IMG/VR virus record: IMGVR_UViG_3300006028_000018
Coordinates: 1 to 41,192 of that record
Reading direction: 5' to 3' (one strand)
Source: a virus
DNA: 41,192 bases
Under the pieces are notes generated by a model, which was given only the letters and a program-made list of their open reading frames with translations, searched no databases and was not told the DNA's origin. Numbering within the stretch: position 1 is the stretch's first letter; each line of letters begins with the position of its first letter. Made by a program: the position numbers and the translations under genes. Shown piece after piece: positions 10,072 to 38,874 of this stretch.

Positions 10072-10142
10072 CGCGGGTTAGAGAAGCGGCATCTCGCAAG
10101 GCTCATAACTTTGAGGCATGGGTTCGATCCCCATACCCGCTA
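10072..10142 (+). tRNA. tRNA-Met (anticodon CAT)
   Basis: A full cloverleaf folds by eye. The acceptor stem 10072-10078 with 10135-10141 has six pairs and a C-U mismatch at position 1-72. D stem GAGA/TCTC with GG in the loop; anticodon stem CAAGG/CTTTG with loop CTCATAA; T stem ATGGG/CCCAT with loop TTCGATC. The 3' CCA is not encoded. An unpaired 1-72 is an initiator-like feature, but the anticodon stem lacks the three G-C pairs of initiators. A CAT anticodon could also be tRNA-Ile read after lysidine modification. Confidence 0.9.
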
Positions 10143-10333
10143 CTATGCCCAATTAATTGAAGCGGTTACTAGCCAGGGGAGCAGGCTATGAGAGCCTCTT
10201 GACAATGGCCCGTTTCGCAGGATAGGCGATGAGGGCATGCAGTGACTATCCCTTTGCTGCATGCCAGGGCAGGGTACACAAGGGGCTCAGCTTCCATCAT
10301 AAGTGCTGATAACGCGGGCCTTCGGCCCATGCA
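10143..10333 (+). other. Gene-free structured interval downstream of tRNA-Met
   Basis: No reading frame is supported here. GGCATGCAG at 10234-10242 and CTGCATGCC at 10257-10265 form a 9-bp hairpin with a 14-base loop. AGGCT/AGCCT and GGGCC/GGCCC pairs flank it. It is co-oriented with the tRNA and ends in the terminator at 10334. It may be the 3' part of the tRNA transcript or an independent RNA. Confidence 0.35.
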
Positions 10334-10369
10334 GGCGCTCTGAGTGAAAGACTCGGAGCGTCTTTTTTT
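10334..10369 (+). terminator. Strong Rho-independent terminator
   Basis: A 12-bp stem (GGCGCTCTGAGT with ACTCGGAGCGTC, two G-U pairs) closes a five-base loop GAAAG, followed by seven T. It ends the tRNA-Met transcription unit. Confidence 0.85.
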
Positions 10370-10396
10370 ATGCTCGACGCCAGCAAGGAGGCACAC

Positions 10397-10519
10397 ATGG
10401 ACATCGACATCCTGGGCACCATCCGGGCGCTCCCACCGTGGCACAAAACCACCCTGCTCGCAGCTGCTGCTATCCTCGCAGGCTATAGCGGCGCCTACGT
10501 GTGGCTGCTCGCACACTGA
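10397..10519 (+). CDS. Tiny membrane protein
   Basis: This 40-codon gene follows AAGGAGGCACAC, an excellent Shine-Dalgarno. It has an N-terminal polar part (MDIDILGTIRALPPWHK) and one hydrophobic helix (TLLAAAAILAGYSGAYVWLL). It is the first gene after the 10334-10369 terminator and starts the packaging operon. Role unknown. Confidence 0.6.
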   Translation: MDIDILGTIRALPPWHKTTLLAAAAILAGYSGAYVWLLAH

Positions 10520-10527
10520 GGTGACAC

Positions 10528-10746
10528 ATGGCACAAACGCTAGAACAAAGGATCAAGATCGGTCTTGCTCGTCACCAGTTCTCCCTTGACGATTACCGTG
10601 ACCATCCCGTCGATTGCCACCTGCATTGCTGGTGTGGAGACTCCCTGCTGATCGACTACCTGCATTTCGGCCTCATGACTATGAACCGCTCGATCATCTC
10701 GTTCATCGCAAAGCACGAGGCGTGCGAGCCAAAGGAGCACGTATGA
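10528..10746 (+). CDS. Small Cys/His-containing hypothetical protein
   Basis: This 72-residue protein contains DCHLHCWCGDS, a tight Cys/His cluster that could hold zinc, followed by a helical half. GAGGTGACAC precedes the ATG. Its stop overlaps the next start (ATGA at 10743), suggesting coupled translation through a stretch that also contains tRNA-Asn. Confidence 0.55.
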   Translation: MAQTLEQRIKIGLARHQFSLDDYRDHPVDCHLHCWCGDSLLIDYLHFGLMTMNRSIISFIAKHEACEPKEHV

Positions 10747-11027
10747 GCATCTCTTCCCGGCTAGCACAATGGGTAGTGCGCATCTTTGTTTCAGATGAGC
10801 GTAGAGGTTCGACTCCTTTGCCGGGAACCGATAGCATCGCAACGCCGCTGGGCCACAAATCGTATCGCGATGTCAACCTCGACGCATCGCTCGATGAGGG
10901 CGTGGAGCGCGCACGCAACCGCAACTATGTGCCCTTTGGCGAGGAAATGAGCGATGCTGAGGACGAGGCGTTTTGGCGCGACCATCCCGAACTCGCCCGC
11001 TTTCGACATGTGCGAGGTGACGAATGA
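10743..11027 (+). CDS. Hypothetical protein whose first third overlaps tRNA-Asn
   Basis: From the overlapping ATGA at 10743 the frame gives 94 residues, but codons 5-29 are the tRNA-Asn gene in the same orientation. The part after the tRNA (TPLGHKSYRDVNLDASLDEG, then EDEAFWRDHPELARF) looks like real acidic protein. Either a full-length product is made from transcripts that escape tRNA processing, or translation begins inside or after the tRNA, for example at the TTG at 10818 or a later GTG. Its stop overlaps the terminase small subunit start. Confidence 0.45.
   Translation: MSISSRLAQWVVRIFVSDERRGSTPLPGTDSIATPLGHKSYRDVNLDASLDEGVERARNRNYVPFGEEMSDAEDEAFWRDHPELARFRHVRGDE
10755..10827 (+). tRNA. 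tRNA-Asn (anticodon GTT)
   Basis: The acceptor stem TCCCGGC/GCCGGGA pairs in all seven positions; discriminator A. D stem GCAC/GTGC with loop AATGGGTA; anticodon stem CATCT/AGATG with loop TTGTTTC, giving GTT at 10788-10790 after U33; T stem AGAGG/CCTTT (one G-U) with loop TTCGACT. Position 37 is T, where A is usual. No encoded CCA. Phage-borne, located inside a protein-coding operon. Confidence 0.9.
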
Positions 11028-23328: not shown

Positions 23329-25767
23329 GTGATTTCAGCGGCAGAACTGATTGGACTTGTCACCATAAAAGGCGCCGAACAGGGCGCGCTCCAACTCGCA
23401 CGCGTCGGTGAGTCGGCAGACAGCGCGGGCGCGAAGCTCGCTGGGCTTGCCGTTGGTGGCACCGTGCTTGCGGGTGCTGCTCTCGTGGGTATTGGTATTG
23501 CCGCTACCAAGATGGCTGCCGACTTCCAGCAAGGCGTCAATCGCCTGAGAACGGGCGGCGGCGATATCCAGGACTCATTCAACAGCCTGTGGACGGGCAT
23601 CCAGAAAGTAGCCGTTGCGACAGGCGAACTCACAGGCCAACTCACCCCGGCGATGTACCTGATTGTATCTGCTGGACAGCGGGGCGCGCAAGCCTTTGCG
23701 ACCCTGACTGCGGCAGCCCAGGGCGCGCAAATCGAACAGGCCAAGGTAGCCGATGTGACGCAAATCCTCACCACACTGCAAACCGACTTCGGCATCAAGA
23801 CCTACACCGCAGCGCAATACATGGATGGCCTGGTATCTGCCGTCTCCCACGGGAAGATCACCCTTGAGGACCTCTCCACTGCGATGTCGCCTATTCTCCC
23901 GATGGCAGGTCAACTTGGTATCCATTTTGCCGATGTGAGCGCGGCTATGGCGGATATGACCAATCAGGGCATACCCGCGGCCCAGGCAGCCACATCTCTC
24001 AGATTTGTCTTCCAAAGTATGATCCTGCCGACGAAGGCATCGCAGACGGCCATGAAAGAGTGGGGCCTGGATACGGGGAAAGTGGCGGAGGAGATGAAGG
24101 TATCACTCCCAGGCGCCTTACAGATGTATATCGATGCGGCGAAGCGGGCAGGGCCAGAGGGAAGTAAGCCCTTCATTGATGCGCTGTCGACCATGATGGG
24201 TGGCGGGCAGCGGGCAGCGAAGGCATTATTTGCGCTTGACCAGAGCATGAATACGTGGCGCGGCGATATCAAGGCCGTCAATACAGCGATGGGGGACACA
24301 TCGAAGAATGTCGCAGGCTGGGATACCGCGCAAAGCAACCTGAATGTGAAGCTGCAACAGGGGCAAGCCGCACTCCAGGTGCTCGGGCAGAATGTCGGGG
24401 CCGTACTCTTGCCCTCTGTGAGCCAATTGCTCGACAAGATGATACCGCTCATCGGCCAGTTCGACGACTGGTTTGTGAAGTCGGGGCGCGAGGCCACGGT
24501 CCTCTCTGCCATAAGCACAGGGCTGTCCACGCTGACCAGCGTTGCAGGGACGACTGCCGGAGTCATCGGTAACATCGCCGGCGCTTTTCAGGATGCAGGC
24601 GCGACCGGGATTGTCCTGCGCAGCGCGCTGATTGCGCTGGGCATCGCCTTTGCGGCGGTCAAACTTACCGAGTTCATGAACGGCATCATCGGGACGATCG
24701 GGTTTTTGAAAGACCTTATCCCTGTCCTGTTCGCGACCGAGGCTGCAACGCTCGGGCTCGTGGGGGTTTTCGGGTTGGTCGTGGCTGCCATTTTTGCCGC
24801 CGGCTATGTGGCGATGAACTGGGATCGCATCATGGGCGCTCTGCAAACGACCGTTTTGCAGAGCGCCGGCGCTCTTGGGCTAGGGTTTAGCGCCCTGGGG
24901 ACGGCTGTGCACAAGGCTTTCGACGTGGCGGGTTCTGCCGCATCGACCTTTGCAGGGGCCTATCAGGGCAATGGCACCGATATAGGCAACATCAGCAAAC
25001 GCATCGGGGATGCATTCAGCGGCCTGGGCACTCTCACACACCAGGTCTGGGGGGTGACAATCGCCGGCAGCGTGCAGAGTGCCTCGGCCAGCGTGCAGCA
25101 ATCCGTCGCGAACATGCAATCAGGAGTAAGCGAGCACATCACCGAGATGACCAATACTGCGTCGCAGCGGGCGGAGCAAATGAGGAGGGCGGTAGCGAAC
25201 AGCGCGCAAGGGATGTATAACGCAGCCGCGGACGCCGCGTCGAATATGGCTGCCCATGTGGTAGGATCAGCGCTCAATATGGAGCAGCAGGTCGTGCGCG
25301 ACTTCTCCGTCACAGAGTCTACGGCCTCTAGCCTGGTTCAGCAACTCCATGACAACGTGATCGGTGACTTTCAATCAATGGACAGTTTAGCCAAAGGCTA
25401 CTGGGACGACGTTGCGAACTATATCCTCGACCATCCCATTGAGGGGTCTGTGAACATCAATGTTGGCGGCGCCAATGCTGGTTCATCTGCTACGGTTCAC
25501 CACTACGCTTCAGGCACAAACTATGCCCCTGGTGGTGCTTCCCTGGTCGGTGAGGGAGGTCAAGCTGAACTCGTGGTAGGGCCACATTTGATGAATCTGC
25601 CGACAGGCGCCGGTGTGTACCCGCTGTCCCAGGTAGGCGGTGGAGGTGGAGGAGCCTCAGGGCAGCCCGTGCAGGTGAACATCTACCTTGCAGGTCAGCG
25701 CGTGGAATCAGTCTTGTTACCTGGCCTCGTGACCGCTATCAGGAATGCAACGGGCGCTAAATTCTAA
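23329..25767 (+). CDS. Tail tape measure protein
   Basis: The start is a GTG at 23329 behind AGGAGATAACTCACA. The 812-residue protein sets tail length and helps DNA entry. Its N-terminal part matches the TP901-type family (AATKMAADFQQGVNRLRTGG, VSHGKITLEDLSTAMSPILP, GIPAAQAATSLRFVFQSMIL). Hydrophobic segments near residues 430-500 (including GLVGVFGLVVAAIFAAGYVA) are the usual membrane-active part, followed by Ala-rich helices and a Gly-rich C-terminus with HHYASGTNYAPGGASLVGEG. By the usual relation of about 1.5 angstrom per residue the tail would be roughly 110-120 nm, an estimate only. Confidence 0.9.
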   Translation: MISAAELIGLVTIKGAEQGALQLARVGESADSAGAKLAGLAVGGTVLAGAALVGIGIAATKMAADFQQGVNRLRTGGGDIQDSFNSLWTGIQKVAVATGELTGQLTPAMYLIVSAGQRGAQAFATLTAAAQGAQIEQAKVADVTQILTTLQTDFGIKTYTAAQYMDGLVSAVSHGKITLEDLSTAMSPILPMAGQLGIHFADVSAAMADMTNQGIPAAQAATSLRFVFQSMILPTKASQTAMKEWGLDTGKVAEEMKVSLPGALQMYIDAAKRAGPEGSKPFIDALSTMMGGGQRAAKALFALDQSMNTWRGDIKAVNTAMGDTSKNVAGWDTAQSNLNVKLQQGQAALQVLGQNVGAVLLPSVSQLLDKMIPLIGQFDDWFVKSGREATVLSAISTGLSTLTSVAGTTAGVIGNIAGAFQDAGATGIVLRSALIALGIAFAAVKLTEFMNGIIGTIGFLKDLIPVLFATEAATLGLVGVFGLVVAAIFAAGYVAMNWDRIMGALQTTVLQSAGALGLGFSALGTAVHKAFDVAGSAASTFAGAYQGNGTDIGNISKRIGDAFSGLGTLTHQVWGVTIAGSVQSASASVQQSVANMQSGVSEHITEMTNTASQRAEQMRRAVANSAQGMYNAAADAASNMAAHVVGSALNMEQQVVRDFSVTESTASSLVQQLHDNVIGDFQSMDSLAKGYWDDVANYILDHPIEGSVNINVGGANAGSSATVHHYASGTNYAPGGASLVGEGGQAELVVGPHLMNLPTGAGVYPLSQVGGGGGGASGQPVQVNIYLAGQRVESVLLPGLVTAIRNATGAKF

Positions 25768-25779
25768 GGAGGAAGCCAC

Positions 25780-27144
25780 ATGTCACGATTGCCAACCGTA
25801 GGAGCCGACAGCAACACCTGGGGCGCCGTCCTCAATGATTTCTTGAGCGTGGCCCACAATGCCGATGGCTCGATCAAAAACCTGTTTGTAAACGTCACGA
25901 ACCCGGTCTATGGCGCTGATCCTACTGGTGTGAATGACTCTACTGTGGCTATCCAGGCGGCCATCACGGCGGCACAAGCGGCAGGCGGGGGCGTGATCTT
26001 CTTTCCAGCGGGCACCTATAGTATCAGCAGTACACTGTCTGTCACAGCCGACAATATCCAGTTTCTTGGCGTAGGACGAAGCAGCATCATTCAAACGAAA
26101 GCTACCTTCACCGCCTCACCGATGATCTGGTATCAGGGACCAGGCGGCGCGGGCAACTTCCGCTTTGGCGCACAGATCGTAAGTCTGCGCCTCATCAACA
26201 CGGTAGGCTCTACTGCCGCCATCGGTATCCAGTTAGATAGCACCTATTACGCCAGGATACACCGCGTTGATGTCACTGGCGTCTATGCAAACAACATCTA
26301 CCTCAATGGCATCGCAACCGCATTCGGGGCATATACAAGCATTAGAGATTGCAACCTGGGACCGGGGCCAGGAGGCGCAACGAGTGGCGGCATCGGCATA
26401 CTCACCAATAATCATGAGTTCAATGTCATCGATAGCAACGTGATCAACTGGTTCAGCGTGGCCGGAGGCTATGGCATCAAGATGGCAAATGGCTCTACGG
26501 TCATCTCTAATAACACCTTCGATGAATGCGATACAAGCATCTGGAATAGCTTTCAATCGTTCAATCGCATTGTCAACAATCAATTTGATCGCGGCATCAC
26601 CCAATTTATCTACCTCAATGGCTGTAAGAATACGACGGTGGCAAACAATGCCTTCCAGCATTTCGTGGGGACCGGCTCCAAGACAATCTTGAATGTGGAT
26701 AATAGCGCCAATGCCAGCAACATCATCGCAAACAATACCTGCATGCTTGCTTCCGGCTGGACAAACTTCGTGACCGAAGGTGGGAGCCTGGGAACGTCCA
26801 ACACTTACGAGAACAATGATACGGCAGGGTTGGCAATCACGCAGACAAACGGCATCTTCAAGAATAACCGGGGCTACAACCCGGTTGGGCAAGTAACGGC
26901 ACCCGCCTTTCCAGCAACGACCGTGGCCGCGACCAATACGACAGGCGTGGATGTGATTGCGTATATCGCCAATGGCACAAGCGCCATTACGGTCGTGCAG
27001 ATTGCAGGCGTGGGTGGCACCTACGTCACGACGCTCTATCAGATTGCGGCCAGTGGCTTTGGAATGGTGCGTATTCCCGCAGGGGGCAGCGTGAAATTCA
27101 CGTATGCGGCAGGCGTGCCAACCTGGACATGGATGGGAGACTAA
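25780..27144 (+). CDS. Tail spike / pectate-lyase-like beta-helix protein
   Basis: The 454-residue protein begins with a short attachment module (LPTVGADSNTWGAVLNDFLS) that is common in bacterial and phage surface proteins, then NPVYGADPTGVNDSTVAIQA and GGGVIFFPAGTYSISSTLSV, the entry of the pectate-lyase superfamily right-handed beta-helix. Asn-rich turns (SNNTFDECDTSIWN, VNNQFDRGITQF) recur through residue 370; a beta domain closes it. Such spikes bind or cut host surface polysaccharide. Catalytic residues cannot be assigned. Unusually it lies between tape measure and the hub gene. Confidence 0.8.
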   Translation: MSRLPTVGADSNTWGAVLNDFLSVAHNADGSIKNLFVNVTNPVYGADPTGVNDSTVAIQAAITAAQAAGGGVIFFPAGTYSISSTLSVTADNIQFLGVGRSSIIQTKATFTASPMIWYQGPGGAGNFRFGAQIVSLRLINTVGSTAAIGIQLDSTYYARIHRVDVTGVYANNIYLNGIATAFGAYTSIRDCNLGPGPGGATSGGIGILTNNHEFNVIDSNVINWFSVAGGYGIKMANGSTVISNNTFDECDTSIWNSFQSFNRIVNNQFDRGITQFIYLNGCKNTTVANNAFQHFVGTGSKTILNVDNSANASNIIANNTCMLASGWTNFVTEGGSLGTSNTYENNDTAGLAITQTNGIFKNNRGYNPVGQVTAPAFPATTVAATNTTGVDVIAYIANGTSAITVVQIAGVGGTYVTTLYQIAASGFGMVRIPAGGSVKFTYAAGVPTWTWMGD

Positions 27145-31317: not shown

Positions 31318-32043
31318 ATGGCAGATTTCACAACGATTAGAAGTCAATTTAATTCTAATACTGATGCAAGCCCCACGTGGAACACGATCACCTTTGGGGG
31401 AAGCGCGGGCGCAAACGAGATGCGCTTTTGTGCTGCTGCGGCTGGTGCTGCTGGCACGGCGTCTGCATCCTGGCCTCAGTATTCACGCCCCGGCGCAACG
31501 GCTGCCGTTGCCGAGATGTGGGGGTTCTCGGCAGACACCACAGGCATCAAGTGTGCGACCTATACAGGGACTAACGCCAACGCGAATGTGATGTGCATAG
31601 ATTACGACGCAGTAGGCACGTATGCAGCAGCGCCAACGCTCACCGCCTATGGCGACAACACGCATGCGGCACCTGTCGCTGGCACGCAACCCGGCGCATT
31701 ATCAGGCTCACCTATCGTCAACGGCCATGCCACCGACACGTCGAGCACATCGTATCTCAAGGCCAACCTATATGGGGACGATCAGACAGCTAATCCGGCG
31801 GCGGGCACAACCGGCACGGTCACCGTCACATCGGGCACGGCTGGCTCCGTGAGTCCTGGCGCGGCGGCGTGGATCGCGAACTTCCAATCGCTCCAGGGGG
31901 TGATCCAGTACATCACGCATCGCAGGACACCGGCGGCCACTACGGCGGGCAAGATCTTCTTTACGCTTGCGCTCTTCACCGGACCCAACATGAGCCTGGG
32001 CACACTCTTGCCTGTGATCACGTGGACCTATAGCTTCGTCTAG
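31318..32043 (+). CDS. Beta-rich structural protein
   Basis: The 241-residue protein is rich in Ala, Thr, Gly and Ser. It begins FTTIRSQFNSNTDASPTWNT and has repeated strands (MWGFSADTTGIKCATYTGTN, GTVTVTSGTAGSVSPGAAAW, GKIFFTLALFTGPNMSLG). Probably a virion surface or fibre protein like its neighbours; no family known. Its end overlaps the minus-strand gene at 32040 by four bases. Confidence 0.55.
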   Translation: MADFTTIRSQFNSNTDASPTWNTITFGGSAGANEMRFCAAAAGAAGTASASWPQYSRPGATAAVAEMWGFSADTTGIKCATYTGTNANANVMCIDYDAVGTYAAAPTLTAYGDNTHAAPVAGTQPGALSGSPIVNGHATDTSSTSYLKANLYGDDQTANPAAGTTGTVTVTSGTAGSVSPGAAAWIANFQSLQGVIQYITHRRTPAATTAGKIFFTLALFTGPNMSLGTLLPVITWTYSFV

Positions 32044-32300
32044 GAGTCGGGCCATTGCGTGAGGTCGGGAACATGCTTGACACAATCAGGGGGGTCGCCA
32101 TACTCAGATTGCTTCTCGTCAGGGACAGACTCAAAACAGTGTATCGCCAGGTCGTAGGCACGCTCAGCGATAATCCCTACAACCATGCCAGGTGCGTCAT
32201 AGACGGCGGCATGGTTGAGGTCGAGCAGCCCGTTCTCATACAGTTCTCGCGCAACGAGCTTTGCAAAACCCTGGAAATGGGTATCTCGTTCTTGATCCAT
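32040..32300 (-). CDS. Minus-strand mini-gene, RDTHFQGFAK family, copy 1
   Basis: This 86-residue acidic protein starts DQERDTHFQGFAKLVAREL and ends VPDLTQWPDS. A paralogue at 38867-39139 starts TDRDTHFQGFAKSLYPEL and ends IPDLTEWPPS. Both are leftward, between rightward structural genes. A TGCTATAAT extended -10 lies on the minus strand at 32331-32323, so it may have its own promoter. Unknown function; the conserved head and tail suggest a peptide under selection. Confidence 0.55.
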   Translation of the reverse strand: MDQERDTHFQGFAKLVARELYENGLLDLNHAAVYDAPGMVVGIIAERAYDLAIHCFESVPDEKQSEYGDPPDCVKHVPDLTQWPDS

Positions 32301-32332
32301 CGTTCACCATCCTTTTAGGAGGATTATAGCAT

Positions 32333-32845
32333 ATGAGCTTCACCAGTTCGCTTGTGGCTGTTGCCAACATGATAGATCCGCAACTGGCTTATTGGAGCGT
32401 TTTGCTCCAATCCGGCAGGGAGTGGTCAGAGCATCACATGGTTCCAACCATGCGCAAAGGGCAAGCAGGCGTGCGGCAGCTTGATTGGGGCGATGACATC
32501 GTTTCAACTGGCGATGTCCACCGTGTCAAGGAGATACGGCTGCATTGCCCCGATGGCAGGACAGCCACGCTTGAGATTGCCGACGGCATGGAGCCGTTTC
32601 AGTTCAAGACGAAAGCATTGGACATGATCGGTGCGGGCGGCAATAGCCTGGAATATCAGGTGATCGGGCGCGTGATCGACAAGGTGAGTGGACGGTGCGA
32701 GTGCTTCATCTGGGATTATAGGCCCAAACCAGGGGAGCCGAACCTCGTGGCCTACAAATCAACGATTTACAAGTTCGGCGGGTGGCGCGATACATGTACA
32801 CCGATAGGCGCGCTCGGACTTCACGTGCAAGGGTTTCGATTATAG
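32333..32845 (+). CDS. Hypothetical protein in fibre region
   Basis: This is an unrecognised 170-residue protein with a strong leader (AGGAGGATTATAGCAT). It contains QLAYWSVLLQSGREWSEHHM, then DWGDDIVSTGDVHRVKEIRL and HCPDGRTATLEIADG, ending in beta sequence with FIWDYRPKPGEPNLVAYKST. Possibly an accessory rather than virion protein; no motif of known activity. Confidence 0.55.
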   Translation: MSFTSSLVAVANMIDPQLAYWSVLLQSGREWSEHHMVPTMRKGQAGVRQLDWGDDIVSTGDVHRVKEIRLHCPDGRTATLEIADGMEPFQFKTKALDMIGAGGNSLEYQVIGRVIDKVSGRCECFIWDYRPKPGEPNLVAYKSTIYKFGGWRDTCTPIGALGLHVQGFRL

Positions 32846-32887
32846 TTCACCACTACTACTGTCGGGAGGCAGAAGGAGTAAAAATCA

Positions 32888-33559
32888 ATGACAGTTGGCT
32901 CAACCCCGCGTGATAGCGGGAATATTCCTCTGGGGTGCGTCGGTGTACCAGGGGACAGCATACCGCAGCAGATACAAGGCGGCGCAGAATTTACCGATGC
33001 GAACAGCAACATTACGGCGCCAATCAGGGCGGAACTGACGCCAGGCAGTAAAGCCACGTTCTCAGCGGCTATTACAGGGCTTGTGCCAGTTACAGGGGCT
33101 ACAGACATCTTTACGGTTACAGGGAGCGCCACGAAGTTAGTCAAGGTCACACGCCTGGTTATTACAGGGTCTACTACGTTGGCGGCTAATGTGATCCTGC
33201 CTATCACTCTTCTGAAGCGTTCTACAGCAGACACGGCAGGCACATCAACGGCTCCCACAAGAGTAGCGCATGACAGCCTCAATGCTGCTGTTACTGCGAC
33301 AGTGCTTGCATATACAGCCAATCCAACAACGGGTACTCTGGTCGGTGCATATCGCAACCTCAGAATGACGCTGCAATTGACTCCGCAAACAGCCACCGAT
33401 TTCCCCATATCCTTGCCATACATTGAAGACTTCGGACAGCGTGGGGGTCAGCCTATTGTTTTGCGCGGCGTCGCTGAAGTGTTCGCTGTGAACCTTGCAG
33501 CCATCGCCACTATCACGGGCTGGCTTTTTGATATCAGCGTGGAATGGACGGAAGAATAA
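32888..33559 (+). CDS. Beta-rich structural protein
   Basis: The 223-residue protein is Thr/Ala/Val-rich: PIRAELTPGSKATFSAAITG, IFTVTGSATKLVKVTRLVIT, NAAVTATVLAYTANPTTGTL, FPISLPYIEDFGQRGGQPIV. The pattern (a stretch called TGSATKxVxVxRL, then repeated strands) is known in virion-associated jelly-roll proteins. Strong leader AGAAGGAG. It is coupled to the next gene (TAATG). Confidence 0.6.
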   Translation: MTVGSTPRDSGNIPLGCVGVPGDSIPQQIQGGAEFTDANSNITAPIRAELTPGSKATFSAAITGLVPVTGATDIFTVTGSATKLVKVTRLVITGSTTLAANVILPITLLKRSTADTAGTSTAPTRVAHDSLNAAVTATVLAYTANPTTGTLVGAYRNLRMTLQLTPQTATDFPISLPYIEDFGQRGGQPIVLRGVAEVFAVNLAAIATITGWLFDISVEWTEE

Positions 33560-33897
33560 TGGCATATATTGATAATATTATCGTCTCAAATGCTACCCTC
33601 ACCGTTGGAACGACCAATTCGGCAACGGTTCCGAACAACGGTGGAGAGCGTACCTGGGTGCTCCTTGTGCGGCAAGGTGGAGGGGGTACGCTCACGGTCC
33701 AGCCAAGAGTAAGCACTGATGGCTCTAACTGGGCATTAGTAGGGACGGCCCATGCCGTGACCATAGGCACAATTGCCCGGTTCGTGTACGGTCTAGGCTC
33801 TACCGATGGCCCGATAATTGAGCCGAATATTCAGATACAGGCAGTGGTCACTGGCTCTAGTGCTACGGGAGTCTTTGGGGAGCTTGTAGGGATATAG
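33559..33897 (+). CDS. Small beta-rich structural protein
   Basis: From the TAATG overlap at 33559 the protein has 112 residues (AYIDNIIVSNATLTVGTTNS, RTWVLLVRQGGGGTLTVQPR, SNWALVGTAHAVTIGTIARF), a beta sandwich of the sort found in small virion decorations. No family known. The gene ends 20 bases before the repeat protein. Confidence 0.55.
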   Translation: MAYIDNIIVSNATLTVGTTNSATVPNNGGERTWVLLVRQGGGGTLTVQPRVSTDGSNWALVGTAHAVTIGTIARFVYGLGSTDGPIIEPNIQIQAVVTGSSATGVFGELVGI

Positions 33898-33917: not shown

Positions 33918-35657
33918 GTGACAATCATCGGGACTGATACCTTCATACGGGCCGATCAATCAGGATGGGGTACGGCATCCGATGGGCAAACATGGTCACA
34001 GGTTCAGGGTGCTGGTACGCTCGCTATCGCCTCCAATGAGGGCACATTCACCGGGCAAATAGCGAGCGATGAAGTGATGGTCCTTGGGAGTACGAACCAG
34101 GCAGATACCGATTGCCTGGTTCGCTTCAAGGTCACCAACTCCGGTAATGATGTCCCGGGTGTCGTGTTCCGTTCCAATGGTTCCAACACGTTCTACCGGG
34201 TGAGAAATAATAGCGGCTCACTGGGTATCCGCCGCATCAATGCAGGCACATCAACTACTATCGGCGTTGATGTTACGGTCACCATGTCCTCGGGCGTGTT
34301 TTATTGGATACGGGGCAAGATCGTTGGGTCCACCATCTCCTGTACGATGTGGGCTGATGGAGGCTCAGAACCAGCGCCACAACTTGTCGTGACAGATGGC
34401 ACGCCGATAAGCGCGGCAGGACGGTTCGGCATCTATGCCTCGATCAATACGACAGCAACCGATACGATCTTCTATGATCACTTCACAGCGACCGATACAG
34501 TCGTAGCGGCACCCTCAACCAAGCCACGCTACATTCCTCGTGGCTTTCTCTCCACCATTGTACCTGACCCGGTGACGCAGCCACTCGCTTACAAAGAGCG
34601 TGGTATCGGCAGCACGATTATCTACGAGATCCGCACGTTTATCCCGCGTGCGCTCAATGGAACATATATTCCCGATACGTGGCGTATGCAACCCCGCGCC
34701 CTTGGCAGCCGCTTTGTGCAGAGCCTGGATCAGTTGAAAGACATCACGACGCGCTTCAGGTTGATGCAGCAGAGCGTGCGCGATGTCACTACCCGCTTCA
34801 GGTTGGCAAGCGTGAGAGACATCGCTACGCGCTTCAGACTCGGGAGCCTCAAGGACATTGCCAGCCGCTTCAGACTGATGCAGCAATCCGTGAGGGATGT
34901 AGCAACCCGGTTCCGATTGGCAAAGCTTCAGGACATTGCTGCACGTTTCCGGCTGGGCTTGCTCAAGGATGTAGCCACTCGATTCCGCTTGATGCAGCAG
35001 AGTGTACGAGACATTGCTACACGCTTTCGGTTAGCGAAGCTGAACGATGTGGCTACTCGCTTCAGGCTGGCGAAACTGAATGACATCAAGACACGGTTCC
35101 GCTTGATGTCTGCCAATCAGTTGCGCGATATAGCGAGCAGGTTCCGTTTAGGGATACTCAAGGATGTCACTACACGCTTTCGCTTAGCGAAGCTCAATGA
35201 CATAGCCACGCGCTTCAAGCTGGGAACCGCCAACCAGAGCATACGGGATATAGCGAGCCGCTTCAGGTTGATGTCAGCCAATCAACTCAGAGACGTAGCT
35301 ACACGGTTCAGGCTTGCCCGATTGCGCGATGTGGCGGCGCGCTTCAGGCTAGGGAGCCTGCGGGATATAGCAGCACGCTTCCGACTCATGAGCGCGAGCC
35401 AACTCCGCGATATCGCCCTGCGCTTCATCCTGACATCGATAGGCGCACCCCGGACAAAGGATATTGCGTGCAGGTTCGTGCTCATCGCTCCCCCTGATGT
35501 CGTGTGGGTCACGCGCGACGGTAAAGCAACCTGGCTCACACGCGACGGTATCGTTTCCTGGGCAACGCGGGATGAGAAAGCGGCATGGGGAAGTAGAGAT
35601 GATCAGGCGACGTGGGATACACGAGACGATAAAGCAAAATGGACAACGAGGAGGTAA
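33918..35657 (+). CDS. Large repeat-bearing fibre protein (jelly-roll, 19 RDIATRFRL repeats, tryptophan repeats)
   Basis: The start is a GTG at 33918 after GAGGT. Residues 1-195 form a LamG/concanavalin-like sandwich (DTFIRADQSGWGTASDGQTW, GVVFRSNGSNTFYRVRNNSG). After a linker, residues 273-523 contain 19 tandem units of consensus LRDIATRFRL joined by spacers of 2, 4 or about 5-6 residues (AK, GS, MQQS, MSANQ). Within a unit the hydrophobic residues alternate with Arg or Asp, which suggests short amphipathic strands in a solenoid or fibre shaft. Residues 530-579 hold five to six nine-residue units (W-x-TRD-x-K-x-x). A receptor-binding or cell-wall-binding fibre is likely; no characterised family fits. 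Confidence 0.8.
   Translation: MTIIGTDTFIRADQSGWGTASDGQTWSQVQGAGTLAIASNEGTFTGQIASDEVMVLGSTNQADTDCLVRFKVTNSGNDVPGVVFRSNGSNTFYRVRNNSGSLGIRRINAGTSTTIGVDVTVTMSSGVFYWIRGKIVGSTISCTMWADGGSEPAPQLVVTDGTPISAAGRFGIYASINTTATDTIFYDHFTATDTVVAAPSTKPRYIPRGFLSTIVPDPVTQPLAYKERGIGSTIIYEIRTFIPRALNGTYIPDTWRMQPRALGSRFVQSLDQLKDITTRFRLMQQSVRDVTTRFRLASVRDIATRFRLGSLKDIASRFRLMQQSVRDVATRFRLAKLQDIAARFRLGLLKDVATRFRLMQQSVRDIATRFRLAKLNDVATRFRLAKLNDIKTRFRLMSANQLRDIASRFRLGILKDVTTRFRLAKLNDIATRFKLGTANQSIRDIASRFRLMSANQLRDVATRFRLARLRDVAARFRLGSLRDIAARFRLMSASQLRDIALRFILTSIGAPRTKDIACRFVLIAPPDVVWVTRDGKATWLTRDGIVSWATRDEKAAWGSRDDQATWDTRDDKAKWTTRR
34734..35486 (+). repeat. Tandem coding repeats (19 units of 36-48 bp)
   Basis: DNA of the RDIATRFRL array. 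Units share a motif like GACAT-GC-AC-CG-TTC-GG-TTG but vary at third positions, so they are old or deliberately diversified. Because the spacing is always a multiple of three and the frame is open throughout, they are protein repeats, not a CRISPR or iteron array. Confidence 0.9.
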
Positions 35658-35660
35658 CTT

Positions 35661-35999
35661 ATGAGCTGGAGTCCGATCACGAGCGGAGACGGCAGAACGA
35701 GCCATCACACCTTTACAACTGATAGCGGCATCTTTTCTTTAGTCGGCGTGGCTAATGGCTCAATAGCCATGCACTTAGAGGACGTCAATAATAACTATTC
35801 GTTATATATCTGTACCGGGGCGTGGAACATCACCAACGCGGCGGGCGGCCTGGCAGACTTCACACCATCGGCGGCTGATCTGCTGAGCACTAATCCGCTC
35901 GGCAAGGCTGGCCTGTACAAAGCGTACCCGGTGGTGACACTCGCAACGGGGCCGGTGGCGATGGATGCCCAGACGCTCCAGGTCGTGAGCGAACCATAA
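35661..35999 (+). CDS. Hypothetical protein with duplicated C-terminal domain, full copy
   Basis: This 112-residue protein follows GAGGAGGTAACTT, which lies in the end of the repeat protein gene. The N-terminal half is beta-rich (TSHHTFTTDSGIFSLVGVAN, YSLYICTGAWNIT). The C-terminal 43 residues, from ADLLSTNPLGKAGLYKAYP onward (VVTLATGP, MDAQTLQV), are repeated almost unchanged in the protein at 36794-36988. Probably an accessory fibre component; function unknown. Confidence 0.6.
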   Translation: MSWSPITSGDGRTSHHTFTTDSGIFSLVGVANGSIAMHLEDVNNNYSLYICTGAWNITNAAGGLADFTPSAADLLSTNPLGKAGLYKAYPVVTLATGPVAMDAQTLQVVSEP

Positions 36000-36632: not shown

Positions 36633-36812
36633 ATGATATTCTTGTACGCTGTCTTGTGGAGCGGGTGCTCATCTCTTGTGTTCCTGGGCACGCTCGTGTG
36701 TGTGCTGGTAAGGAGGCAACATGCTGATTCGAGTGAAACTGTTCCTACTCAATCTCTACTGCTTTGTAAGACTGAGAAAGAAAGGAGGCCCGCATGCCTG
36801 GTGATTTTATAA
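36633..36812 (+). CDS. Mini-protein A, copy 1 (hydrophobic N-terminus)
   Basis: The frame starts at 36633 after AAAGGAACGAGC. The first 29 codons (MIFLYAVLWSGCSSL and a further hydrophobic stretch) match mini-protein A copy 2 (37371) residue for residue, with all seven nucleotide differences silent. The reading frame then continues through block B in another frame to 36812. The conserved part is one membrane segment. Function unknown; repeated purifying selection argues that it is made. Confidence 0.55.
   Translation: MIFLYAVLWSGCSSLVFLGTLVCVLVRRQHADSSETVPTQSLLLCKTEKERRPACLVIL
36710..36796 (+). repeat. Repeat block B, copy 1 (87 bp)
   Basis: The 87 bp from AAGGAGGCAAC (36710) to the ATG at 36794 are found again at 37744-37830 with one mismatch. 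It contains a ribosome-binding site, mini-gene B and the next gene's leader. Confidence 0.9.
36721..36804 (+). CDS. Mini-protein B, copy 1
   Basis: This 27-codon frame has a consensus leader (AAGGAGGCAAC). It encodes a short, basic, Leu-rich peptide (MLIRVKLFLLNLYCFV, then RLRKKGG), possibly membrane-active. Copy 2 at 37755 shares 25 residues with one silent change. It also acts as the leader for the gene at 36794. Confidence 0.45.
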   Translation: MLIRVKLFLLNLYCFVRLRKKGGPHAW

Positions 36813-36988
36813 AAGACCTCTTGCATCACAAACAATGGGTTGCACAGAACATGCAGACCGCTGCTGATCTGCTCTCAACCAACCCGCTCGGCAAGGCTGG
36901 CCTGTACAAAGCGTACCCGGTGGTGACGCTCGCAACGGGGCCGGTGAGCATGGATGCACAAACCTTGCAAGTCATCTCGGAACCGTAG
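36794..36988 (+). CDS. Short paralogue of the 35661 protein (C-terminal domain only)
   Basis: A new 20-residue start (PGDFIKDLLHHKQWVAQNMQ) is joined to the 43-residue domain ADLLSTNPLGKAGLYKAYP and following, which is the C-terminus of 35661-35999. The DNA of the shared part (36861-36986 against 35873-35997) is very similar, with mostly silent changes. AAAGGAGG leader from block B. It seems a domain re-used with a new head. Confidence 0.6.
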   Translation: MPGDFIKDLLHHKQWVAQNMQTAADLLSTNPLGKAGLYKAYPVVTLATGPVSMDAQTLQVISEP

Positions 36989-37761: not shown

Positions 37762-37830
37762 TTCGAGTGAAACTGTTCCTACTCAATCTCTACTGCTTCG
37801 TAAGACTGAGAAAGAAAGGAGGCCCGCATG
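37744..37830 (+). repeat. Repeat block B, copy 2 (87 bp)
   Basis: Second copy of block B, identical to 36710-36796 except one base. It supplies the ribosome-binding site (AAAGGAGG) for the endolysin at 37828. Confidence 0.9.
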
Positions 37831-37841
37831 TCAATTGTTGA
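37755..37841 (+). CDS. Mini-protein B, copy 2
   Basis: This 28-codon frame has the same 25-residue start as copy 1 (36721) and then three new residues. It overlaps the previous stop (ATGCTGA) and runs 14 bases into the endolysin gene, so it could regulate endolysin translation as a leader peptide. Confidence 0.45.
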   Translation: MLIRVKLFLLNLYCFVRLRKKGGPHVNC

Positions 37842-38874
37842 TCCGCCTATGGTGAATAAGCTCATGCTGGTGCCTGAGCAAAATACGTTCATCGGGTCAC
37901 AACCAGGGAGTGCGCTTATTATCCATAAGACCGCTTCAGGGGGAACTGCTGAAGACGTTGCAAACTTCTTCATTCATGATCCAAACGGGGCATCAAGTCA
38001 CTTTGTGATTGGACAAGACGGCGAAATAGTCCAGTGCGTCCATCTCGTGAACGGAGCCGGGGCGAATTGTTGCGTCGAAAATGGGTATGACTCGTATTGG
38101 GACCAATTCAACCCGATGCATGTAGGATCAAGCGGTGGCACAAACCTCAACACGATCACCATATCCATTGAGCATTGCGACCCTGCTTCAGATAACAGCA
38201 CGCCGTTGACGGCTGCTCAGCAGGCATCGTCTTTCAAGCTGGTGAAGTGGCTTGTCGATCAATATGGCTTCGATATCACGCCCGATGGACACGGGCAGAT
38301 GGTAGATATCAAGGGGCACAATACGATAGACCCGATCAATCGGGCGCGCTGTCCAGGAGCATACCCCTGGGATGAACTACATACCTATCTACAAGGAGGT
38401 GGAACGATGGGAGTACCGACAGGTTGGCATGACGATGGCACGACACTGACCGCGCCCAACGGCGTCAAGGTCGTGCATGGCTTCCGTGACTGGGTGTTGT
38501 CACATAACTGGGATGCAGCCAACTGGCCTTTAGCCGCTGAGTTCGGCACGTCGTTGCTCGAATCATCCAATCCGAGTTTAGGCGGGGGAACGCAGCAGCT
38601 TTTCAACTGGACGATGCTCGGGTATACCGCAGCAAGGGGCGTATTCGTTGAATGGGGTGTTCGGGAACTGGCCTTTTGCCGGCAACAAGTGCAACTCAAA
38701 GCTGCGCAAATCGGAGCGTTAGACGCGCAAATCGCGCAACTGAAAGCAGACCTGGCATCGGCTCAGGCGCAACAGCCTACGGGCGTGGATCCGGCAAAGG
38801 TTGCTGATAGACTCACGGCTTTCGGGCTGCTTGGCAAGCAAGTCGAGCAGTTGGCAGCGCAGCCGATCAGCTAG
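37828..38874 (+). CDS. Endolysin: N-acetylmuramoyl-L-alanine amidase (Amidase_2) with C-terminal binding region
   Basis: This enzyme cuts the amide bond between muramic acid and the stem peptide of host peptidoglycan. Residues 25-185 form the Amidase_2 domain: zinc ligands His33 (ALIIHKTASGG), His164 (KGHNTIDP) and Cys175 (NRARCPG), with Glu115 in ISIEHCDP as a likely catalytic residue. Residues 194-290 (GVPTGWHDDGTTLTAPNGVK, VHGFRDWVLSH) form a second domain, probably cell-wall binding, followed by a coiled coil (about 295-325). An internal ATG at 38407 with AAGGAGGTGGAACG may make the C-terminal 155 residues separately. Leader AAAGGAGG comes from block B. Confidence 0.9.
   Translation: MSIVDPPMVNKLMLVPEQNTFIGSQPGSALIIHKTASGGTAEDVANFFIHDPNGASSHFVIGQDGEIVQCVHLVNGAGANCCVENGYDSYWDQFNPMHVGSSGGTNLNTITISIEHCDPASDNSTPLTAAQQASSFKLVKWLVDQYGFDITPDGHGQMVDIKGHNTIDPINRARCPGAYPWDELHTYLQGGGTMGVPTGWHDDGTTLTAPNGVKVVHGFRDWVLSHNWDAANWPLAAEFGTSLLESSNPSLGGGTQQLFNWTMLGYTAARGVFVEWGVRELAFCRQQVQLKAAQIGALDAQIAQLKADLASAQAQQPTGVDPAKVADRLTAFGLLGKQVEQLAAQPIS
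38394..38409 (+). promoter_or_regulatory. Internal ribosome-binding site and start in endolysin gene
   Basis: AAGGAGGT inside the codons for the linker is followed, after the bases GGAACG, by an in-frame ATG at 38407 exactly at the domain border. A product of 155 residues would be the binding region and coiled coil without the catalytic domain. Confidence 0.6.

Follow-up and report, generated by a model that had tools for sequence, protein, structure and literature searches.

The exchange of receptor-binding heads is well known among phage tail fibres. Shuffling of domains, among them SGNH hydrolase, lectin and trimerisation domains, is described for modular tail fibres and tail spikes (PMC10684548). 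The protein family described here resembles those fibres in the exchange of domains within receptor-binding proteins, and differs from them in that the repeat stalk itself is exchanged as well and that domains are inserted between its repeat units. A literature search for such repeat stalks gave nothing specific.

The minor tail proteins of the Streptomyces phages KimJongPhill, Zuko and Dubu, together with gp20 of Douge, share a jelly-roll head and the position in the tail module with the protein studied here, but their tblastn matches stop at the end of the head, and neither an RDIATRFRL array nor the C-terminal tryptophan nonads were found there. CBM66, a levan-binding module from Bacillus subtilis (4azz), resembles the modelled head in fold, at 15% sequence identity. 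Two features recall the alpha/beta coiled coils described for the MATKDDIAN nonads of Tcar0761 (5apz) and the hyaluronidase fibre of a S. pyogenes prophage (2C3F) (PMC4786415): the spacings of the array can in part be read as hexad plus nonad, and the W-x-T-R-D at the C-terminus resembles M-A-T-K-D (profile E 0.008). The differences are that core position a of the C-terminal nonads is occupied by K, I or Q, that other lineages have a Gly behind R-[DS], and that in one layer each the array is without the K/R at e and the D/E/Q expected at g.

The array gene and its setting

The whole stretch of DNA analysed, here called the window, is a 41,192-base IMG/VR virus record encoding an integrase, terminase, portal, major head protein, tape measure, tail spike and amidase endolysin. 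The array gene lies in the tail module, with the tape measure and tail spike on one side and the amidase endolysin on the other (Table 1). Its start context and frame were kept in L002, L003, L007, L004, L016 and L018, and compared with L002 the dN/dS was 0.08 for the head, 0.06 for the linker, 0.16 for the array and 0.17 for the C-terminus. Ratios this low (0.06-0.17) show that the frame is translated and that its product is a genuine protein kept by purifying selection. Eight array-bearing records, the window included and the record of L050 left out, were searched for such genes, and each had a single one.

Table 1. Positions of the array gene, its parts and its neighbours (window numbering unless a relative is named).
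Feature	Position	Strand	Remarks
Tape measure	23329-25767		Tail gene upstream of the array gene
Pectate-lyase-fold (Pect-lyase_RHGA_epim / Beta_helix) tail spike	25780-27144		Directly after the tape measure
Upstream genes 31318-32043, 32333-32845, 32888-33559, 33544-33897	31318..33897	+	Beside the array gene in relatives, in part (blastn)
Array gene (putative tail adhesin)	33918..35657	+	GTG start, 579 aa
N-terminal concanavalin A-like jelly-roll head, residues 1-195	33918..34502	+	Predicted by AF2, Foldseek, phrog_24476
Linker, residues 200-270	34515..34727	+	Has a further short repeat, the third in the protein, R-[AG]-x-x-[SGN]-x, at intervals of about 16-20 residues; from sequence and alignment
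Array of 19 units [KRNQ]D[IV]xxRF[RKIV]L, residues 274-522	34737..35483	+	Spacings 12-17
3' half of array, residues 376-523	35043..35486	+	Near-identical in L003; recombination seam
C-terminal array, six 9-residue W-x-[TS]-R units	35505..35654	+	W at residues 530, 539, 548, 557, 566, 575
Downstream 112-aa gene	35661..35999	+	Adjoins the array gene also in L002, L003, L007, L004, L030
N-acetylmuramoyl-L-alanine amidase (endolysin)	37828..38874	+	Amidase_2 E 1.5e-20
AGVGTLTGTLS array	L004:8784-9575		Second unclassified stalk repeat

The pectate-lyase-fold tail spike at 25780-27144 is a second candidate receptor-binding protein of the phage. Part of the 112-aa gene, its 3' end (residues 67-112), occurs a second time at positions 36794-36988 with 87% identity, a copy that among the relatives searched was found in the window only. 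Elsewhere, two short tandem DNA repeats of 15 and 23 bases lie near the left end (1346-1476), and a tRNA-Met (cat) and a tRNA-Asn (gtt) were predicted at 10072-10829, just ahead of the packaging genes.

The AF2 model of residues 24-195 was a jelly-roll with a pLDDT of 65-89. Foldseek gave CBM66 4azz as the best PDB match (E 3e-8, TM 0.77 on the target) and also matched mycobacteriophage Douge, in its baseplate and its central fibre gp20. In a viral structure library the top match was a Streptomyces phage minor tail protein, followed by other minor tail and receptor-binding proteins. At the sequence level the head matched phrog_24476 (E 5e-11), and relatives of it were found in isolate phages at 28-32% identity over about 190 residues (tblastn). 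Both the N-terminal jelly-roll and the fibre-like tail protein of the original prediction are in agreement with this fold and with the position of the gene in the tail module. A predicted ligand-binding or depolymerase domain is present in the family, as the jelly-roll head recognised by fold and as LamG and GDSL hydrolase domains in relatives, and from its modelled fold the head may bind sugar. Counting against a tail adhesin, neither end of the protein has a recognisable domain for anchoring in the virion.

Repeat units, their layout and their age

Nineteen near-identical units with short spacers had been reported from the sequence, and all of them were recovered, whereas 1000 shuffles of the same protein gave no RDIATRFRL-type unit. 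Start-to-start spacings along the array were 14, 12, 12, 14, 12, 12, 14, 12, 12, 15, 12, 12, 16, 15, 12, 12, 15 and 17. The conserved unit is nine residues long and not ten as first described; in the relatives a 15-residue repeat was the commoner form and 12 the second commonest spacing. The spacers had been seen as mixed in order and laid out in blocks; the block-wise layout stands, while the order is one of short-short-long triads in which every run of short spacers is exactly two long (permutation P = 0.003). The spacers of L026 followed a four-unit period (P = 0.0008), and the periods in the two proteins are consistent with ancient duplications of different blocks.

Position 3 of the unit is Ile or Val in 93% of cases, and D2, R6 and R8 are present in most units. 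The alternation of Ile/Thr/Phe/Leu with Asp/Arg/Arg was confirmed by the hydrophobic moment of the nine-residue core, 0.79 at 170 degrees versus 0.34 at 100 degrees; the net charge over the 252 residues of the window array is +38. The second, tryptophan-based array was likewise found, as six nonads (Table 1). In array lineages with quite different N-termini the protein always finishes in three to six nine-residue repeats, mostly with the core R-[DS]-G and in L016 in a divergent version; of all parts of the protein, this C-terminal array of nine-residue units is apparently kept most constantly.

Against the characterised repeat families, the array gave no convincing match in Pfam, PHROGs, NCBIfam or PDB. 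Since the RDIATRFRL repeat was absent from these four databases by the present searches, it is regarded as a new family. TRPM_tetra (PF16519), the coiled-coil domain of TRPM channels, matched 33 repeat residues with E 1e-8, a match not seen again with L007, L016 or L026; it was rejected as a low-complexity chance match. Other Pfam and NCBIfam matches to the array (FlhD, SoxY and others) were repeat-driven chance matches. A sequence search of PDB with the full-length protein gave KH domain-containing protein 3 (E 0.006), an unrelated low-complexity repeat.

On the DNA level TRF detected no tandem repeat for the array. Codon agreement at identical residues between window units was 0.375, compared with 0.366 +/- 0.009 after synonymous shuffling, whereas 85% of codons agreed between the window and L002 at matching array positions. 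At 90.6% nucleotide identity over the gene, L002 agrees with the window in the number of units, 19, and in every spacing between them. Because synonymous sites are randomised between units, and with an array dN/dS of 0.16, the units are old and kept by selection; each of the many copies appears individually constrained, since the protein is near-identical while its codons are randomised. The identical layout in L002 together with the randomised codons argues for an array that is old and stable on the L002 time scale. By the codon test no trace of recent unit duplication was found in the window, and some was retained in L026 and L018. A test for codon scrambling beyond chance, as in avoidance of DNA repeats, found none.

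Exchange, insertion and mosaicism among relatives

Homologous arrays were sought in related phages, and eight were found in IMG/VR besides that of the window. The nine array proteins carry about 13-43 units: 19 in L002, 18 in L003, 17 in L007, 33 in L016, about 23 in L018, 43 in L026, 13 in L030 and >40 in L050, isolated chance matches far outside the array being discarded. All array relatives derive from uncultivated viral contigs. No RDIATRFRL array was found in isolate phages, and no array gene in GTDB r220 genomes in two scans based on a few exact peptide patterns, which gave no genome match to speak for or against Ktedonobacteria as host.

L004 has the head of the window protein (83% over residues 1-260) and the same C-terminal W-TRD array, but the middle is replaced by an unrelated, uncharged array of AGVGTLTGTLS units with a net charge of +2. 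A scan with this AGVGTL array matched L004 alone. L026 opens with a short AGVGTL-like stretch that is joined directly to an RDIATRLRL array. Whole domains are found between units in two other relatives, a Laminin_G_3 domain (LamG, E 1e-20) in L018 and a GDSL lipase/acylhydrolase (E 4e-14) between the RDIATRFRL-type units of L030 (7554-9899), and in both the entry point is right after an [FL]RLRS stretch. L050 contains two arrays, each with a similar beta-rich region ahead of it, the one between the arrays being a second copy of the N-terminal region.

Compared with L003, the window protein was about 33% identical in amino acids and 45-47% in nucleotides over the head, 87-100% and 86-90%, respectively, over the 3' half of the array, and 66% over the C-terminus. 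With L016 the pattern was turned around, with 58% over the head, 69% over the linker and 18% over the C-terminus. Identities that are reciprocal in this way mark the proteins as mosaics whose seams fall within the array or close to it. Heads and arrays recombine independently. At the level of sequence, the comparisons show a modular protein with cassette replacement, insertions between units, mosaicism and old units kept by selection.

Proposed stalk, binding surface and fold

The probable product of the gene is an accessory tail adhesin, either a minor tail protein or a receptor-binding protein, in a phage that is tailed and temperate, with the array as its exchangeable stalk. We infer the location in the virion, the oligomeric state and the spacer function as follows. 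A jelly-roll head of carbohydrate-binding type would be borne on a long stalk of tandem RDIATRFRL units, which would be oligomeric, probably trimeric, and would project or link the head; the chain would end in the short array of nine-residue units. The stalk would act as a spacer cassette that can be swapped whole for an AGVGTLTGTLS array, extended by units or interrupted by a lectin or enzyme domain. Recombination at the array or within it would exchange the heads, and the type of stalk, its length and the inserted domains would be varied independently. Because relatives swap the array or plug domains into it, the array is probably an interchangeable spacer and not a binding surface. What speaks against a pure spacer is the conservation of the unit, with D2, R6 and R8 in most copies, which exceeds the needs of a spacer.

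The original prediction had seen in the basic array a binding surface, perhaps for acidic wall polymers, with the repeat number as a host-range dial. Such a receptor-binding surface, formed by an Arg-rich face of a beta-sheet or solenoid with unit number tuning avidity, would fit the net charge of +11 to +15 per 100 residues in the six arrays computed, the strict alternation of D-x-R-R with I-T-F-L within the unit and the range of about 13-43 units among relatives. It is weakened by L004, in which the array with net charge +2 stands between the same head and tail; since L004 keeps its head and C-terminus around an uncharged array, the basic charge is not essential to the architecture. The comparison of repeat number between relatives likewise disfavours the dial, as unit number and spacing are the same at 90.6% nucleotide identity in L002, synonymous sites are saturated and the window is without trace of recent unit duplication. 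We give binding by the array, in those phages that keep it, a low probability. That the product is an internal basic protein associated with DNA or the capsid would explain the strong positive charge but is very improbable in view of the lectin-like head, the LamG and GDSL hydrolase insertions, the endolysin neighbourhood and the uncharged substitute in L004.

For the fold of this putative stalk, structure prediction gave less than for the head. The array had a pLDDT of about 30 in the AF2 model of the full protein, and nine regular units of L018, modelled with 29 register-shifted rows, came out helical with a mean pLDDT of 66.8, 36-67 across the five models and a pTM of 0.32. These models were of a monomer only, disagreed with each other and were not trusted, and the solenoid that had been proposed is therefore unproven. 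Neither a Foldseek search of PDB with the AF2 array model, which gave no match, nor a search of PDB with the array sequence profile, which gave nothing of note, pointed to a known fold.

Tentatively, and as something short of an even chance, the array may be a trimeric beta-prism or triple beta-helix shaft in which short strands cross the fibre axis and the loops take domain insertions. The hydrophobic moment at 170 degrees, the Ile or Val at unit position 3 and loops that vary in length and accept whole domains are in favour; the absence of strands from the monomeric AF2 array and of a conserved Gly/Pro turn is not.

Rather improbable is a natural alpha/beta coiled coil, trimeric and serving as an interchangeable stalk cassette, in which hexads and nonads alternate (a 15-residue unit being a nonad plus a hexad), with pure hexad runs in the window (a 12-residue unit being two hexads), and with beta-layers at L9-x-S11 and I3-x-T5. 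This fold would account for the strand-like alternation and the partial AF2 helix together, and the spacings fall mainly at 12 and 15, three residues apart. Known beta-layers come mainly from trimeric proteins of bacteriophages (PMC4786415), and the authors of that 2016 paper reported no coiled-coil protein with hexad-spaced beta-layers, apart from a single pair in the fibre of a Streptococcus prophage. Of 15 registers, the one that places beta1 at L9 and I3 came out best (P = 0.026 versus permuted columns, 122 distinct 15-mers), in a test that was devised after seeing the sequences and with R6 fixed by the unit-finding pattern. By the rules of PMC4786415 (beta1 hydrophobic, beta2 small, beta3 D/N/T/S, e K/R, g D/E/Q, a hydrophobic) 8 of 11 features were found in at least 66% of the 122 units. 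The other three point away from the fold: nonad beta2 is often M/R/K in place of a small hydrophobic residue (13% agreement), nonad e is Ala where K/R is expected (0%) and hexad g is Arg where D/E/Q is expected (1%). Also against it are F/L at position f, the misfit of spacings 14, 16 and 17, and the outcome of both PDB searches. The C-terminal nonads were rejected as an alpha/beta coiled coil, with a = K/I/K/Q/K in the window, which is not hydrophobic, and Gly after R-[DS] in L018, L026, L030 and L050.

A triple beta-spiral of the adenovirus and reovirus shaft type, which is a 15-20-residue repeat with a conserved Gly/Pro turn, was rejected because no column of the 15-mers has a conserved Gly or Pro, and a collagen-like phage fibre on the lack of G-X-Y triplets in the sequence and column counts of the array.

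By its sequence, then, the array adds a new family of repeats to an already known kind of protein. Its units, which appear to be individually constrained, make it a good target for structure determination. The exchange of shaft repeats between close relatives, together with the lectin and esterase insertions, illustrates clearly, by a case from nature, what a plug-in stalk is.
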